From Acidaminococcus hominis (GTDB lineage: Bacteria; Bacillota; Negativicutes; Acidaminococcales; Acidaminococcaceae): 64,000 nt of DNA. The translations under genes and the position numbers were made by a program. The notes beneath the pieces are model-generated. The model was not told the DNA's origin and made no database searches. It worked only from the letters and a program-made list of their open reading frames with translations. Every line of letters starts with the position of its first letter. Within the stretch, counting starts at the first letter, position 1. The stretch lies in NCBI RefSeq assembly GCF_900291475.1, contig NZ_OLMM01000002.1, positions 2,899 through 66,898 of the forward strand, written 5' to 3'. This document shows, piece after piece, positions 49,823 to 56,217 of this stretch.

Positions 49823-50551
49823 CTAGGCCAGGGGTATCTCTTCCAGGTATTTCCGGGTATCGTCCAGGCTGGTTACGTCCCGCCAGCCAAAGACCCGGAG
49901 TTTCTTGCACAGGGAAAAAGCTTTGGGGTGGCTTTTAATCAGGGCTTTGGCACCCCGCACCATTTCCCGGCCGGTAGGACTGGCCGTATAGCCCTTGAGG
50001 GCTTCATCTAGCAAATGGTTGTCCGGCCAATGTTCTCTCAGGCAGCTGTGGACGAACAGAATCAGGTCCAGCACCCGGGGGTCTGCTTCGATGAAGCGCT
50101 TTTCATTTTCCCAATCCAGAAAGGTAATGGTATCCGTTTCTTTATTGTAGGCAATGTCCCGGAGTGCCGGCCGGCCGTGGTGCAGCCCCACTTCGTGGAG
50201 TTTTGCCAGGGAAATGCCGGCCAGTTTGTAGGCCCGGTCCCGGCAGTCCTGCCAGGGGGCTTCCTTGGCCACGCCCTGCATGGTCTTGCCCACTGCCTTC
50301 ATGACGAAATAGTCGTCCTGCAGCAGGGCAATTTCCGGTGCCAGGGGAAAATACTGGTTCACCGTCATAATTTTATAAACCTCGCACCAGAAGGCGCCTT
50401 CCACACTTTGTTTGGCAAAGGCATTCCGGTGGTTGGAAATTTTTTGTTTGATAAAGTAGTCCTGTCCTTCATAAGAAAAGGACAGCACCCGTTTATCCTT
50501 GTGGGCGGCAATGGCCTGGTCCACGGCTTTCTTGAAATCCAGATTGATCAT
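49823..50551 (-). CDS. Kinase-fold protein (LPS core kinase-like)
   Basis: A 242-residue protein with a protein-kinase-like fold resembling lipopolysaccharide kinases (RfaP/InaA type). A candidate ATP-Lys lies in GQDYFIKQKIS, the catalytic loop is LHEVGLHHGRPALRDIAYN, and the metal-binding Asp is in TFLDWENEKRF. I chose ATG 50551, 12 bases after the ptsI stop. A membrane sugar phosphate substrate would suit a diderm cell, but the location between ptsI and trmK gives no direct clue. Confidence 0.72.
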   Translation of the reverse strand: MINLDFKKAVDQAIAAHKDKRVLSFSYEGQDYFIKQKISNHRNAFAKQSVEGAFWCEVYKIMTVNQYFPLAPEIALLQDDYFVMKAVGKTMQGVAKEAPWQDCRDRAYKLAGISLAKLHEVGLHHGRPALRDIAYNKETDTITFLDWENEKRFIEADPRVLDLILFVHSCLREHWPDNHLLDEALKGYTASPTGREMVRGAKALIKSHPKAFSLCKKLRVFGWRDVTSLDDTRKYLEEIPLA

Positions 50552-50562
50552 GCCGCGCCTCA

Positions 50563-52146
50563 CTACTCAACGGTCAGGGAGCAGATCAGTTTCCGGGCAG
50601 GAAGAATCCGGCCAGGAGCCATGCTCAGCTCGTCCACACCCATGGTGATAAACAGCGGAATCAGGTCGGGGTTGGCTGCGGCTTCCCCGCAGATGCCCAC
50701 CCAGATGCCGGCTTTGTGACCGTTGTAGATGGTGGCCTGGATCAGCTTTAAAACGGCTTTATGGGCCGGATTGGCCAAGTCTTCCAGGGCCGCGTTCTGC
50801 CGGTCCACCGCCAGGGTGTACTGCACCAGGTCGTTGGTGCCAATGCTGAAGAAATCCACCAGGGGCGCCAGGTCTTCACTGATCAGGGCTGCAGCAGGGG
50901 GCCCAATCATGACGCCCACTTCCAGGTCAGGGTTAAAAGGAATCCCTTCCTGGGCCAGTTTGATTTTCGTTGCTTCCAGCAGTTCCTTAGAGGCCTGGAC
51001 TTCGTCCACGGAGGTAATCATGGGGAACATGACAGCTACCTGGCCGTAGGCAGACGCCCGGAGAATGGCCCGCAGCTGGGTGTAGAAAATATCCGGCCGT
51101 TTCAGGCAAATCCGGATGGCCCGGAAGCCCAGGGCAGGGTTGGCTTCTTCCGGCAGGTCAAAATAGCCCGCCTTCTTGTCAGCGCCGATATCCAGGGTAC
51201 GGATAATCAGCCGGCGGCCTTCCATGGCCACCGCCGCATCCCGGTAGGCAGTGAACAGTTCTTCCTCCGTGGGGAAGGTATCCCGGCCCAGGTACAGGAA
51301 TTCGCTGCGGAACAGGCCAACGCCTTCGGCATCGTTTTCCCGGACCAGGGGCATATCTTCCGGTCCCCCTACGTTGGCGTACAGGGCGATGCCCTTGCCG
51401 CTGGCGGTCATGGTGGGCCGGCCCCGGAACTGATCCAGCTCGTGGGCCTTGCCGGAAAGGATTTCCGCCTTTTCCTTAAAGGTTTTCAGAATGCCTTCGT
51501 CAGGCTCCAGGAACAGGGCGCCACTGCCCCCGTCCATGGCGGCCAAAATTCCATTCTGCTCCTCCGTCAGGTTCTGCCCGGTGTGGGCAATGGCCGGAAT
51601 CTTCATAGTCCGAGCCAAAATGGAGGTATGGGAATTGCTGCTGCCTTCGCTGGGGGTCAGGTCATCGGCGTAGATGATGGACGGCCGGGTCAGCAGGCTG
51701 GTCCAATCCTTGCCACTGGTCAGCAGTTCGTCCAGTTGGCCGCCGATATCCCGCACGTCCGCAGCCCGTCCCTGCATATATTCGTCGTCCATGGATTCCA
51801 GCATGGCCGCAAATTGGGCCGTGGCTTCCCGGGCGGCTGCTTCGGCAGTCAGATGGTCCTGGACCATCAGGGCTTCGCAGGCATCGTTCAGGTCCGGATC
51901 CTGGAGCATCAGTTGGTGCACTTCAAAAATGGCGGCTTCTTCTTCCCCGGCTTCCGCCTGGGCTTTCACCCGCAGCTTTTCCAGATTGGTCAGAACCTGC
52001 TGCCGGGCGGCCTGAAACCGGGCCACTTCCTGCTCCGGCGCCAGGGTGCTGATAGGAGAAGCGGAGCTTTGGGCCTTGGCGGGTTTTACCAGCAGAGGAC
52101 CTACGGCAATACCTTCCGAAGCGCCTTTTCCCTCGATTAAGAACAT
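50563..52146 (-). CDS. ptsI: PTS Enzyme I
   Basis: A 527-residue PEP-protein phosphotransferase that starts the sugar PTS by phosphorylating HPr. The active-site His is His173 in GSSNSHTSILARTMKIPA. The PEP-binding domain has DIGADKKAGYF, NPALGFRAIRICL and SIGTNDLVQYTLAVDR, with Cys in GICGEAA. About 17 residues normally found between DDLTPS and GGRTSH are absent, and GGRT reads GSSN. The protein is about 40 residues shorter than usual. Start is ATG 52146 after GGGGG. It follows ptsH with a small overlap. Confidence 0.92.
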   Translation of the reverse strand: MFLIEGKGASEGIAVGPLLVKPAKAQSSASPISTLAPEQEVARFQAARQQVLTNLEKLRVKAQAEAGEEEAAIFEVHQLMLQDPDLNDACEALMVQDHLTAEAAAREATAQFAAMLESMDDEYMQGRAADVRDIGGQLDELLTSGKDWTSLLTRPSIIYADDLTPSEGSSNSHTSILARTMKIPAIAHTGQNLTEEQNGILAAMDGGSGALFLEPDEGILKTFKEKAEILSGKAHELDQFRGRPTMTASGKGIALYANVGGPEDMPLVRENDAEGVGLFRSEFLYLGRDTFPTEEELFTAYRDAAVAMEGRRLIIRTLDIGADKKAGYFDLPEEANPALGFRAIRICLKRPDIFYTQLRAILRASAYGQVAVMFPMITSVDEVQASKELLEATKIKLAQEGIPFNPDLEVGVMIGPPAAALISEDLAPLVDFFSIGTNDLVQYTLAVDRQNAALEDLANPAHKAVLKLIQATIYNGHKAGIWVGICGEAAANPDLIPLFITMGVDELSMAPGRILPARKLICSLTVE

Positions 52147-52159
52147 GGGCTGCACCCCC

Positions 52160-52417
52160 TTAGAGATTGGCACGAATGCAGGTTTCCAGTGCGTGGGCGG
52201 CTTCCTTTTCGTCCGGACCTTCCACAGCGATGGTCACTTCCATGCCGGCTTTGATGCCAAGGCCCATAACGGCGAAAATCCGTTTCAGGTCACCGGTTTT
52301 GCCGTTGCCGGTCATGGTGCTCTTAGACTGGAATTTAGCAGCTTCCTTCACAAGAAGACCTGCCGGTCTTGCATGAATCCCCTGAGGATCTTGAATCGTA
52401 TACGTAAATTGAACCAT
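52160..52417 (-). CDS. ptsH: HPr phosphocarrier lacking regulatory Ser46
   Basis: An 85-residue PTS carrier. His15 in GIHARPAG receives phosphate from Enzyme I. In Firmicute HPr, residue 46 is a Ser phosphorylated by HPr kinase; here the segment reads DLKRIFAVMGLGI, with Arg46. The CcpA/HPr-Ser-P route therefore cannot act through this protein. AAGGAGTGGAG precedes ATG 52417. It lies between fruA and ptsI and presumably serves the fructose system. Confidence 0.93.
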   Translation of the reverse strand: MVQFTYTIQDPQGIHARPAGLLVKEAAKFQSKSTMTGNGKTGDLKRIFAVMGLGIKAGMEVTIAVEGPDEKEAAHALETCIRANL

Positions 52418-52495: not shown

Positions 52496-54427
52496 CTAGA
52501 CGTTTTTCTTCAGGAAACCTAACAGAACGGCGCCCGCTGCCGTACCAGCAGCCAGGGAAACCAGGTACATGGGCCAGTTCTGTACAACCCCCAGAACGAA
52601 AATGCCGCCGTGGGGTGCAGGCAGGGTGCAGCCAAAGAACATGGACAGGGCACCTGCCAGGGCTGCTCCGATGGCGCAGGCAGGAATTACCCGCACCGGG
52701 TCTTCGGCAGCAAAGGGAATGGCCCCTTCGGTAATGAAGGAAAGTCCCATGATAAAGTTCGACACAGCACCGCTCCGTTCCTTCTCTGTAAATTTCTTAG
52801 GGAACAGCAGGCAGGCCACGGCAATGGCCAAAGGAGGCACCATGCCCCCTACCATGACGGAAGCCATAAAGGGAGAAGACACAGCCGCGCCGTTGGCACC
52901 CGCCAGGGAAGCCGTACCAAAAACGTAGGCCGCCTTGTTCAGGGGACCGCCAAAGTCGATGGACATCATGCCGCCCAGAATCAGCCCCATAAGAATCTTG
53001 CTGGAGCCGCTCATGGCGCTTAGGGTACCGTTGACCCAGGTGTTTACCAGACCCATGACAGGATTGATGGCCAGCACCATAAGACCGCCCATGATAATCA
53101 GGCCCAGCACCGGGTACAGCAGAATGGGTTTGATATTTTCCAGGGATTCCGGCAGGAAACCCTGGCATTTTTTCAGGGCCAGAATCAGATAGCCGGCCAC
53201 GAAACCGCCAGCCAGGGCGCCAAAGAAGCCGCTGCCCCCGGTAGAAGCCATGGCGCCAGCCACAAAGCCTACCAAAAGGCCGGGACGGTCAGCAATACTG
53301 GCGGCAATGAAACCGGCCAGCATGGGCATCATAAAGCTGAAGGCCAGGCCGCCCACTTGCTTGAAGAAGGCTGCCAGGGGCGTGCTGCTGCCGAATTGGG
53401 CCGTACCTGCGGCGCCCATATCAAACAAGAAAGCCAGGGCAATCAAGATGCCGCCGCCAATGACGAAGGGCAGCATATGGGAAACACCGTTCATCAGGTG
53501 CTTGTACACCCGTCTGGCGCCGCTTTCTTCCTGGGTGCCTTCGGCCTCGGGACCGCCGGTCTCCCCTTCAAAAACAGGGGCAGTGCCGGACAGGGCCCGG
53601 TCCAACAGCTCGTCAGCCTTGTTGATGCCGTCGGCTACTTTCACGATGACCACCCGTTTGCCCTTGAAGCGGTTCATGGGCACGTATTTGTCCGCTGCTA
53701 CGATGATGCCCTGGGCAGCGGCAATTTCCTCGGCGGTCAGGGCGTGCTTGACGCCGCTTTGGCCGTTGGTTTCTACTTTAATGGAAATGCCCCGTTTTTT
53801 GGCGTGCTGTTCCAGGCTTTCGGCAGCCATGTAGGTATGGGCAATGCCGGTGGGACAGGCAGTCACTGCCAGAATCTGGAGTGCCGGGGTTTCTGGGGCT
53901 GGGCTTTCGTCTGGAGCAGCTTCAGGACTGGCAGCAGGGGCTTCCGGCTCTGCCTTTTCTTCCGGGAATTTCTCAGCTTCTGCCTTGGCAATCAGGGCGT
54001 AGAGCGCGTCCACATCCTGCACTGCCAGCAGGGCGTCAATAAAATCCGGGTCCATTAAAAGGGTGGACAGCCGGCTCAGCACTTCCAGATGCACATTGTC
54101 TTCGGTATCCGGAGCAGCAATCAGGAAAAACAGTTTGGCCGGCTGGCCGTCCAGAGAGTCAAATTCCACTCCGTCCAGACAGCGCAGGAAGGCCAGGCCG
54201 GGCCGGGTCACTGCCGGGGTCTTGGCATGGGGAATGGCTACCCCTTCCCCTACGCCGGTGCTTCCTTCTTCTTCCCGGGCGAACACCTTGCGGGTGTATT
54301 CGGCAGGGTCGGCAATATTTCCCTGTTTCACCATTAGGGCGATCACTTGTTCCAATACGTCTTTTTTGGAAGCGGCGCTTCCGTTTAATTCTACACTTTC
54401 CCGTTTCAGTAAATCAGTAATTTGCAT
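52496..54427 (-). CDS. fruA: PTS fructose transporter subunit IIABC
   Basis: A 643-residue membrane transporter that imports and phosphorylates fructose at C1. IIA occupies about residues 1-150, with His67 in GEGVAIPHAKTP. A Pro/Ala/Glu-rich linker follows, then IIB with Cys191 in AVTACPTGIAHTYMAAESLE, and IIC from about residue 300 (HLMNGVSHMLPFVIGGGILI) with about ten helices. GAAAGGAAA precedes the ATG. Its neighbours fruK, ptsH and ptsI complete the pathway. Confidence 0.94.
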   Translation of the reverse strand: MQITDLLKRESVELNGSAASKKDVLEQVIALMVKQGNIADPAEYTRKVFAREEEGSTGVGEGVAIPHAKTPAVTRPGLAFLRCLDGVEFDSLDGQPAKLFFLIAAPDTEDNVHLEVLSRLSTLLMDPDFIDALLAVQDVDALYALIAKAEAEKFPEEKAEPEAPAASPEAAPDESPAPETPALQILAVTACPTGIAHTYMAAESLEQHAKKRGISIKVETNGQSGVKHALTAEEIAAAQGIIVAADKYVPMNRFKGKRVVIVKVADGINKADELLDRALSGTAPVFEGETGGPEAEGTQEESGARRVYKHLMNGVSHMLPFVIGGGILIALAFLFDMGAAGTAQFGSSTPLAAFFKQVGGLAFSFMMPMLAGFIAASIADRPGLLVGFVAGAMASTGGSGFFGALAGGFVAGYLILALKKCQGFLPESLENIKPILLYPVLGLIIMGGLMVLAINPVMGLVNTWVNGTLSAMSGSSKILMGLILGGMMSIDFGGPLNKAAYVFGTASLAGANGAAVSSPFMASVMVGGMVPPLAIAVACLLFPKKFTEKERSGAVSNFIMGLSFITEGAIPFAAEDPVRVIPACAIGAALAGALSMFFGCTLPAPHGGIFVLGVVQNWPMYLVSLAAGTAAGAVLLGFLKKNV

Positions 54428-54442: not shown

Positions 54443-55348
54443 TTACTGCAATTCCTGCATCAGTTGTTCAATGGCGTCGCCTGTGGCAAGGCCCATGGCA
54501 AAAGCCGTAGCCGAGCCTGCACAAATCCCCAGGCGCAGGGCATAGGTGTAATCTTGGGTCTTCTGGTAGCCAGCCAAAAAACCAGCTACCATGCTGTCCC
54601 CGGCCCCCACGGTGTTTACGGGAGTGCCGGCGGGAGCGGCGCTGGTATGCACCACGCCCTGTGCATCCACCAGGAGGGCACCGCCAGCTCCCAGGGAAAT
54701 CAAAACGTTTCTGGCTCCCAGCCGCTGGAGTTCCAGGGCCGCGTCAACCAAGTCCTGCCGGGTTGGCAGGGGCCGCTGGAGCAGTTCTTCCAGTTCTTCC
54801 CGGTTGGGCTTAATCAGGAAGGGACCGGCGGGCAGGGCTGCTTTCAGCAGCTCACCTGTGGCGTCCACTACGCAGGGGACCTGCTTTGCCGCCATTTTGG
54901 CAGTCAGGTCCCAGTACAGGGTATCGGCCCCGCCGCTGGGCTTGGCCCCGGAAAGCACCAGCATATCCTCTGGGGTCAGTTGGTCCAGCTGGGCTTCCAA
55001 CCGGGACAGATCCTCTGGGGACACCTGGGGCCCCTGGCCGTTGATGGCCGTTTCCTTGCTGCCCCGCACCTTGACGTTTATCCGGGAAAAGCCGCTGCTT
55101 ACCGGCAGCAGCTCTGCGGGAATGCCGTACTGTGCCAAAAGGCGTTCAATCTCGTCCCCGGTAAAGCCGGCCTTAAAGCCCAGGGCTTTGGTAGAAACTC
55201 CCAGGTGGGTAAGAATAATGGACACGTTGATGCCCTTGCCCCCGGGGAAAATTTCCTCGGCCTGGGTCCGGTTGATGTTCCCCACCTGAAACTGGGGCAC
55301 GGTCACCACATAATCCAGGCTGGGATTAAAGGTTACGGTATAAATCAT
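54443..55348 (-). CDS. fruK: 1-phosphofructokinase
   Basis: A 301-residue PfkB-family kinase converting fructose 1-phosphate to fructose 1,6-bisphosphate. PfkB signatures are GGKGINVSIILTHLG near the start and VNTVGAGDSMVAGFLAGY with the catalytic Asp near the end, plus KPNREELEELL. GAGGAAC precedes the ATG. It is directly upstream of fruA (15-base gap) and downstream of the ChbG-like gene. Confidence 0.94.
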   Translation of the reverse strand: MIYTVTFNPSLDYVVTVPQFQVGNINRTQAEEIFPGGKGINVSIILTHLGVSTKALGFKAGFTGDEIERLLAQYGIPAELLPVSSGFSRINVKVRGSKETAINGQGPQVSPEDLSRLEAQLDQLTPEDMLVLSGAKPSGGADTLYWDLTAKMAAKQVPCVVDATGELLKAALPAGPFLIKPNREELEELLQRPLPTRQDLVDAALELQRLGARNVLISLGAGGALLVDAQGVVHTSAAPAGTPVNTVGAGDSMVAGFLAGYQKTQDYTYALRLGICAGSATAFAMGLATGDAIEQLMQELQ

Positions 55349-55365: not shown

Positions 55366-56217
55366 TTATAAATCGGTGAAATTAATTACGGAAATCCCCT
55401 GGCTTTTCACCAGGTCCAGGTTTTGGGGCGCTGTTACTGCGGTCAGTTCGGCTTCAAAATCGTGGTCCCACTGGATAGCTGGCTGGAGCACTGCGTTGTC
55501 CGTGCCCGGGTGCAGCATCACTTCCGTGGTGCCTTCCTGAAGCTGCAGCAGAATGGTCCGGAAATTGCTCAGGTCCACCGCCTCCCCGGCCACAATGCCG
55601 CCAAAGTAATCGGGGGTAAGAAAGCCCCTGGCCTTGGCCTTGGACCGGGCCCGCTCTGCCAGCAGATGAAGGCCCATACGGCCCACCTGCTCACCCAGGT
55701 TGCTTTTCCGGGTGGCCAGCAGGGACACAGGAATGGCGGGAATCCGCACCCGTTTTACCCCGCAGCCTTCGCAGAGGCTCAGGATAATGTCGATGATTCC
55801 CGGCAGCACGTGCATATGCTGGTGGCTGTCAGCGTGGGTGGGACGCAGGCCGGTGGCCAAAAAAGCTTCCAGCTGGGCCTTGCATTCTTTTTTCACGTCA
55901 CTTCTGCGGACCTTGCCGCTGAGATACTGCTTCACAAACTCCTTGTGGCTGGGGAAGAATTCACCGGTCTTGGGGTCAATCAGGGACGGAATCTCCCTAA
56001 TTGGCAGCACCGGTTTGCCGTTTACCAGGGTGAAATGGATGCCCAGTCCCAGTTCCGGGTGGGTTTTGGCAATATCCACCGCTTCCTGGAAGGCTTCCCC
56101 GGTAACCATTACCGTGGCAGAACGGATAAGCCCCTGCTCCACCCCTTGGCGCACCGCCGCATTAATATAGGAATGCCGGCCAAAATCGTCGGCATTAACA
56201 ATCAACTTTTTGGTCAT
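55366..56217 (-). CDS. ChbG/YdjC family carbohydrate deacetylase
   Basis: A 283-residue metal-dependent deacetylase. Metal and catalytic residues are visible in LIVNADDFGRHSYINAAV (Asp pair), LGLGIHFTLVNGKPVL (His) and PTHADSHQHMHVLPGI (His cluster). Members remove acetyl from N-acetylated di- or oligosaccharides. It heads the fru gene run, 17 bases before fruK, so the operon may process an acetylated sugar as well as fructose. Confidence 0.88.
   Translation of the reverse strand: MTKKLIVNADDFGRHSYINAAVRQGVEQGLIRSATVMVTGEAFQEAVDIAKTHPELGLGIHFTLVNGKPVLPIREIPSLIDPKTGEFFPSHKEFVKQYLSGKVRRSDVKKECKAQLEAFLATGLRPTHADSHQHMHVLPGIIDIILSLCEGCGVKRVRIPAIPVSLLATRKSNLGEQVGRMGLHLLAERARSKAKARGFLTPDYFGGIVAGEAVDLSNFRTILLQLQEGTTEVMLHPGTDNAVLQPAIQWDHDFEAELTAVTAPQNLDLVKSQGISVINFTDL

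Follow-up and report, generated by a model that had tools for sequence, protein, structure and literature searches.

In the Gram-positive relatives of the bacterium considered here, sugar control hinges on Ser46 of HPr. In the window, which is the whole 64,000-nucleotide stretch of DNA that was analysed, the gene for HPr specifies arginine at that position, and the question that it raises is what such a protein can still do, where its arginine comes from, and whether the transport system that it belongs to works. Our preferred reading, to which we assign a probability of roughly 0.6, is that this is the true HPr of a fruK-fruA-ptsH-ptsI cassette and a member of a lineage of HPr and Enzyme I with lysine or arginine at HPr residue 46 (K/R46), that it would be un-switchable at that residue and joined there to its Enzyme I by a salt bridge, and that this Enzyme I is probably impaired in the window's genome.

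The identity of the protein is clear. Its translation (MVQFTYTIQDPQGIHARPAG...GKTGDLKRIFAVMGLGI...) scores 94.2 bits against Pfam PF00381 (cut-off 23) and 92.7 bits against NCBIfam TIGR01003 (cut-off 47.9), and the phosphorylatable His15 is present, together with Arg17 and Pro18, in the motif GIHARPA. Arg46 stands opposite the Ser of NLKSIMGVMSLGI in solved HPrs, without gaps and in three alignments; the serine that marks an HprK/CcpA-regulated HPr is replaced by the arginine of a CGG codon. A preliminary description of this DNA had drawn attention to both features, the exchanged residue 46 and the retained His15, and both stand. It had also named what would undo or confine its observation, a sequence error at codon 46 or a second, canonical HPr elsewhere. 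Neither applies: the nine genomes of the genus, among them the window's, all have Arg46, and the search for another ptsH returned only this one PF00381 match in a genome rated 99.84% complete. The HPr is real, its fold is ordinary and its Arg46 is lineage-wide. The features of the locus are collected in Table 1.

Table 1. Features of the HPr/Enzyme I locus, in coordinates of the window
Feature	Position	Strand	Basis or remark
ptsH, HPr of 85 amino acids	52160..52417	minus	translation, PF00381 and TIGR01003; sole PF00381 match in genome
codon 46 = CGG (Arg), usual residue Ser	52280..52282	minus	read from sequence, aligned to other HPrs
codon 15 = CAT (His), phosphorylation site retained	52373..52375	minus	read from sequence
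ptsI, Enzyme I (from its ATG)	50563..52146	minus	only PF05524 match in genome
junction of in-frame 48-base (16-residue) deletion	51645..51646	minus	aligns to E. coli Enzyme I 168-183
GGG (Gly) at the E. coli Glu431 position	50902..50904	minus	Glu in 146 other aligned Enzyme I rows
fruA, fructose EIIABC	52496..54427	minus	only PF02378 EIIC in genome
fruK, 1-phosphofructokinase	54443..55348	minus	TIGR03828, 311.5 bits (cut-off 292)

Three known proteins serve for comparison. Bacillota HPr (ptsH; PDB 1rzr, 1kkl and 2fep) shares with the window's HPr the fold family, the His15 motif, the length and an ungapped alignment, and differs from it in having Ser46; with Arg in place of that Ser, the window's protein lacks a site for HprK. 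E. coli-type HPr (PDB 1ggr and 1poh) also differs in having Ser. The likeness of E. coli HPr, which retains Ser46, is that of a phosphocarrier working without HprK. Crh of B. subtilis (PDB 1mo1) is an HPr relative without one of the two sites, and the window's HPr is the reverse case: Crh has kept Ser46 and is missing His15.

The Ser46 branch was said to be closed to this HPr, and the searches for hprK and ccpA that had been proposed as checks agree, since residue 46 is Arg and neither HprK nor CcpA was found in the genome. No PF07475 match was obtained there (all eight candidates scored) in a search of imperfect recall that missed the B. subtilis control, and no match to a profile built from ten HprKs of the class (five of the ten candidates scored, five being the most scored for any genome). 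Full-length HprK was identified in 18 of 380 class genomes, which belong to families f7, f16, f18, f22, f25, f26, f28 and f31 (the f numbers are our labels), and with the ten-HprK profile in none of f1 (the window's family), f20, f33 or f35; weak profile matches in f20 and other families fall below full length. For CcpA, the window's genome has no TIGR01481 match at E 0.001, and the TIGR01481 cut-off is reached in 0 of the 380 class genomes, the HprK-bearing ones included.

Has residue 46, then, only drifted after the loss of HprK, so that its Lys or Arg is functionless? The comparison of position 46 across Negativicutes, another of the proposed checks, addresses this. Stand-alone HPrs with His15 were tallied per genome, after matches in frames longer than 200 amino acids or without His15 had been dropped. 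In f1 the residue is Arg in 15 genomes, Lys in 12 and Gly in one, hence Lys/Arg in 27 of 28; a 29th f1 genome with an HPr match (G033) has a fused Lys46 HPr and is left out of the tally, and in 30 of the 59 f1 genomes an HPr match is absent. All 15 f33 genomes with an HPr match are Lys/Arg (12 Lys, one Arg, one Lys and Arg, one Lys and Asn). The other families sampled have Ser: 21 of 21 genomes in f35, ten of ten in f7, 51 in f20 (one of which has a further HPr copy, with Asp; the sample is 51 of the 179 f20 genomes with an HPr match and is skewed to the best-scoring), and all ten genomes from f10, f12, f16, f22, f25, f26, f27 and f28. Of the 18 HprK-bearing genomes, the 11 with an HPr in hand all have Ser46.

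Drift after HprK loss would fit the failure to find HprK in f1 and f33, and also the occurrence of one Gly46 and one Asn46 HPr in these families. Against it, the families f20 and f35, in which HprK was likewise not found, have Ser46 in every one of the 72 genomes examined, so that absence of the kinase does not entail absence of the serine; moreover, the replacement is basic in 42 of the 43 f1 and f33 genomes taken together, which is no random mix. Drift is accordingly a rather doubtful explanation. The earlier suggestion that Arg46 reflects loss of the classic system fits what was found in the genome, yet Arg46 does not follow from the loss of HprK by itself, given the serine of f20 and f35. 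A basic-46 lineage beside kinase-less Ser46 lineages offers a natural experiment on what conserves Ser46 in genomes where HprK is not found.

Several further observations on residue 46 may be recorded here. Locus L089 (genome G029) has a single HPr with Gly46 and L226 (G331) a single HPr with Asn46, in families otherwise Lys/Arg; L192 (G165) has three HPr genes in tandem at 1366-2359, the third with Asp46, a residue resembling phosphorylated serine. Outside the sample, eight of 113 plasmid records, chosen from the top rows, have seven Ser and one Lys, and the viral_contigs collection yielded no relative. A literature search of titles and abstract openings, with few subscription papers among them, came upon no report of Lys/Arg at HPr-46 and no work on HPr in Negativicutes.

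What might a basic residue 46 do? The HPr of the K/R46 lineage would pass phosphate via His15 and be unable to be switched off at residue 46. An excerpt of PMC3724859 describes an Enzyme I-HPr complex in which Glu83 (E. coli Glu84) is hydrogen-bonded to Ser46, and gives the E. coli pair as Ser46 with Glu84. The matching residue of the window's Enzyme I, mapped by alignment, is Asp83 (counted from LIEGKG). Among 77 HPr-Enzyme I pairs (six f35 rows lacking the N-terminal part of Enzyme I are left out), all 41 whose K/R46 HPr stands alone have an acidic residue 84, against three of 34 Ser46 pairs, these three with Glu84; the Gly46 HPr is paired with Asp and the fused Lys46 HPr with Ser. A plasmid of Lachnospira eligens adds a pair of HPr Lys46 with Enzyme I Asp at 84. 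The acidic 84 in all of the stand-alone K/R46 pairs and in the L. eligens pair makes it plausible that a salt bridge between HPr-46 and Enzyme I-84 replaces the hydrogen bond. The basic side chain would pair with the acidic residue at the E. coli 84 position, and the contact that phosphorylation of Ser46 would weaken would be held by this bridge instead. An acidic 84 is not specific to a basic 46, however, because the E. coli pair joins Ser46 with Glu84. An independent-pairs test of 46/84 coupling gave no support, each trait changing only about twice on the tree; with so few independent events phylogeny prevents statistical proof, and the salt bridge stays a lead.

The distribution of K/R46 is best read as that of an inherited, probably transferred variant, since the Enzyme I genes of the lineage group in a single clade whose members come from more than one family and more than one class. 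With identical sequences removed from the trees, the HPr tree (137 rows, 80 columns; weakly resolved) needs two changes of the K/R46 label. The Enzyme I tree (83 rows, with f20 represented by 14 and f35 by nine) nests f33 within f1, despite the assignment of f33 to the same order as the Ser46 family f35. When the L. eligens plasmid Enzyme I is added, it falls inside the f1/f33 set (44 of 84 rows, SH-aLRT 95). That plasmid (NC_012780) carries a fruK-fruA-ptsH-ptsI operon with the gene order of the window, Lys46 in its HPr and Asp84 in its Enzyme I; it differs in belonging to the class Clostridia and in having an Enzyme I with Glu431 and no deletion. Identity with the window is 55% for HPr and 47% for Enzyme I. 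Horizontal transfer is the simplest reading of these trees, which are quick ones and in which the L. eligens branch is long. K/R46 would have come to the window's genome by descent in its genus, the lineage having also moved between families.

The company of fructose genes invites a different account, in which a dedicated fructose PTS had its HPr selected for immunity to HprK in HprK-bearing hosts and was later transferred to HprK-less Negativicutes. The whole cassette with Lys46 on the L. eligens plasmid speaks for it, as does the position of FruA directly upstream of ptsH in 26 of 41 f1/f33 loci with at least 900 bases upstream (the Gly46 locus is one of the 41). In the other 15 FruA is not directly upstream, which rules out a strict tie of this HPr lineage to fructose genes, and a Monoglobus plasmid HPr that adjoins FruA and ptsP has Ser46; we consider this account unlikely. 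The same figures bear on the earlier proposal of a dedicated fructose HPr: the gene does lie in a minus-strand run of fruK, fruA, ptsH and ptsI, but it encodes the sole HPr of the genome, and the fructose association holds in just those 26 of 41 loci. Bolder than the preferred reading, and in our estimation improbable, is a mobile, self-contained fructose PTS cassette with a fixed 46/84 salt bridge, which would make its sugar phosphotransfer structurally immune to control by HprK at Ser46, would have spread between Clostridia and Negativicutes, and would be decaying here through its Enzyme I.

Two arrangements near ptsH and fruK are mentioned for their own sake. In genome G001 (L238, 4853-5722) ptsH-ptsI has no fru genes in the 5 kb preceding it, and a gene for an ArsR/SmtB-type regulator precedes ptsH. 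In the window a YdjC-like gene (55366-56217; PF04794, 228 bits), on the minus strand like fruK, lies immediately upstream of fruK; it was not seen there in the fetched relatives, few of whose loci extend that far.

The Enzyme I of the window is more surprising than Arg46, and its lesions had gone unnoticed: the preliminary description expected transport to work, which is now doubtful, since the sole Enzyme I has a 16-residue deletion beside its active-site His and has lost Glu431. The 48 bases are missing in frame relative to genus members, just before that His, and the deleted stretch is present in every genus member aligned. Among 150 aligned rows that continue on either side of this stretch (each row is a distinct sequence, and some share a genome), only the window and L228 have at least ten gaps in this region, and L228, despite its gaps, retains the strand that adjoins the active His. 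At the position of E. coli Glu431, which we take to be a Mg ligand, 151 rows divide into the Gly of the window, 146 Glu and four gaps, the loss in the window amounting to three base changes across two adjacent codons. The combination of a complete phosphohistidine domain with Glu431, by which a functional Enzyme I was to be recognised, is not found in this protein.

Outside the lesions, Enzyme I looks as if it were still under constraint, and the damage is therefore either recent or misjudged. Near-invariant positions are kept in 71 of 73 cases. The dN/dS of the window against genus members is 0.21-0.29, as compared with 0.14-0.19 among those members, and the dN excess on the window side, ~1.8 to 2 times, falls within the 1.6 to 3.2 times obtained for ptsH, fruA, fruK and three genes nearby; dN gives no support for selection having been relaxed along the entire Enzyme I. 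Harmless lesions or errors of assembly, with a normally working PTS in this genome, would accord with these values and with the open ptsI frame, but there is little likelihood of this when 48 bases that every aligned genus member has are gone beside the active His, and when the Glu431 loss is so unlike a single miscall. The damage probably represents a recent loss or impairment. Under the preferred reading of a K/R46 cassette, the partner Enzyme I being probably impaired, PEP may no longer drive the cassette in this genome. The damaged Enzyme I warns that the presence of pts genes is not the same as a working PTS.

Directly after ptsI, on the minus strand at 49823-50551, lies a gene for a kinase-like protein with a weak match to TIGR03724 (Bud32; E 5e-6, far below cut-off) and no Pfam match; an alignment-free structure model of it (mean pLDDT 46.5) is too poor for comparison. 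The seven other members of the genus with fetched loci of sufficient reach share this arrangement with the window.
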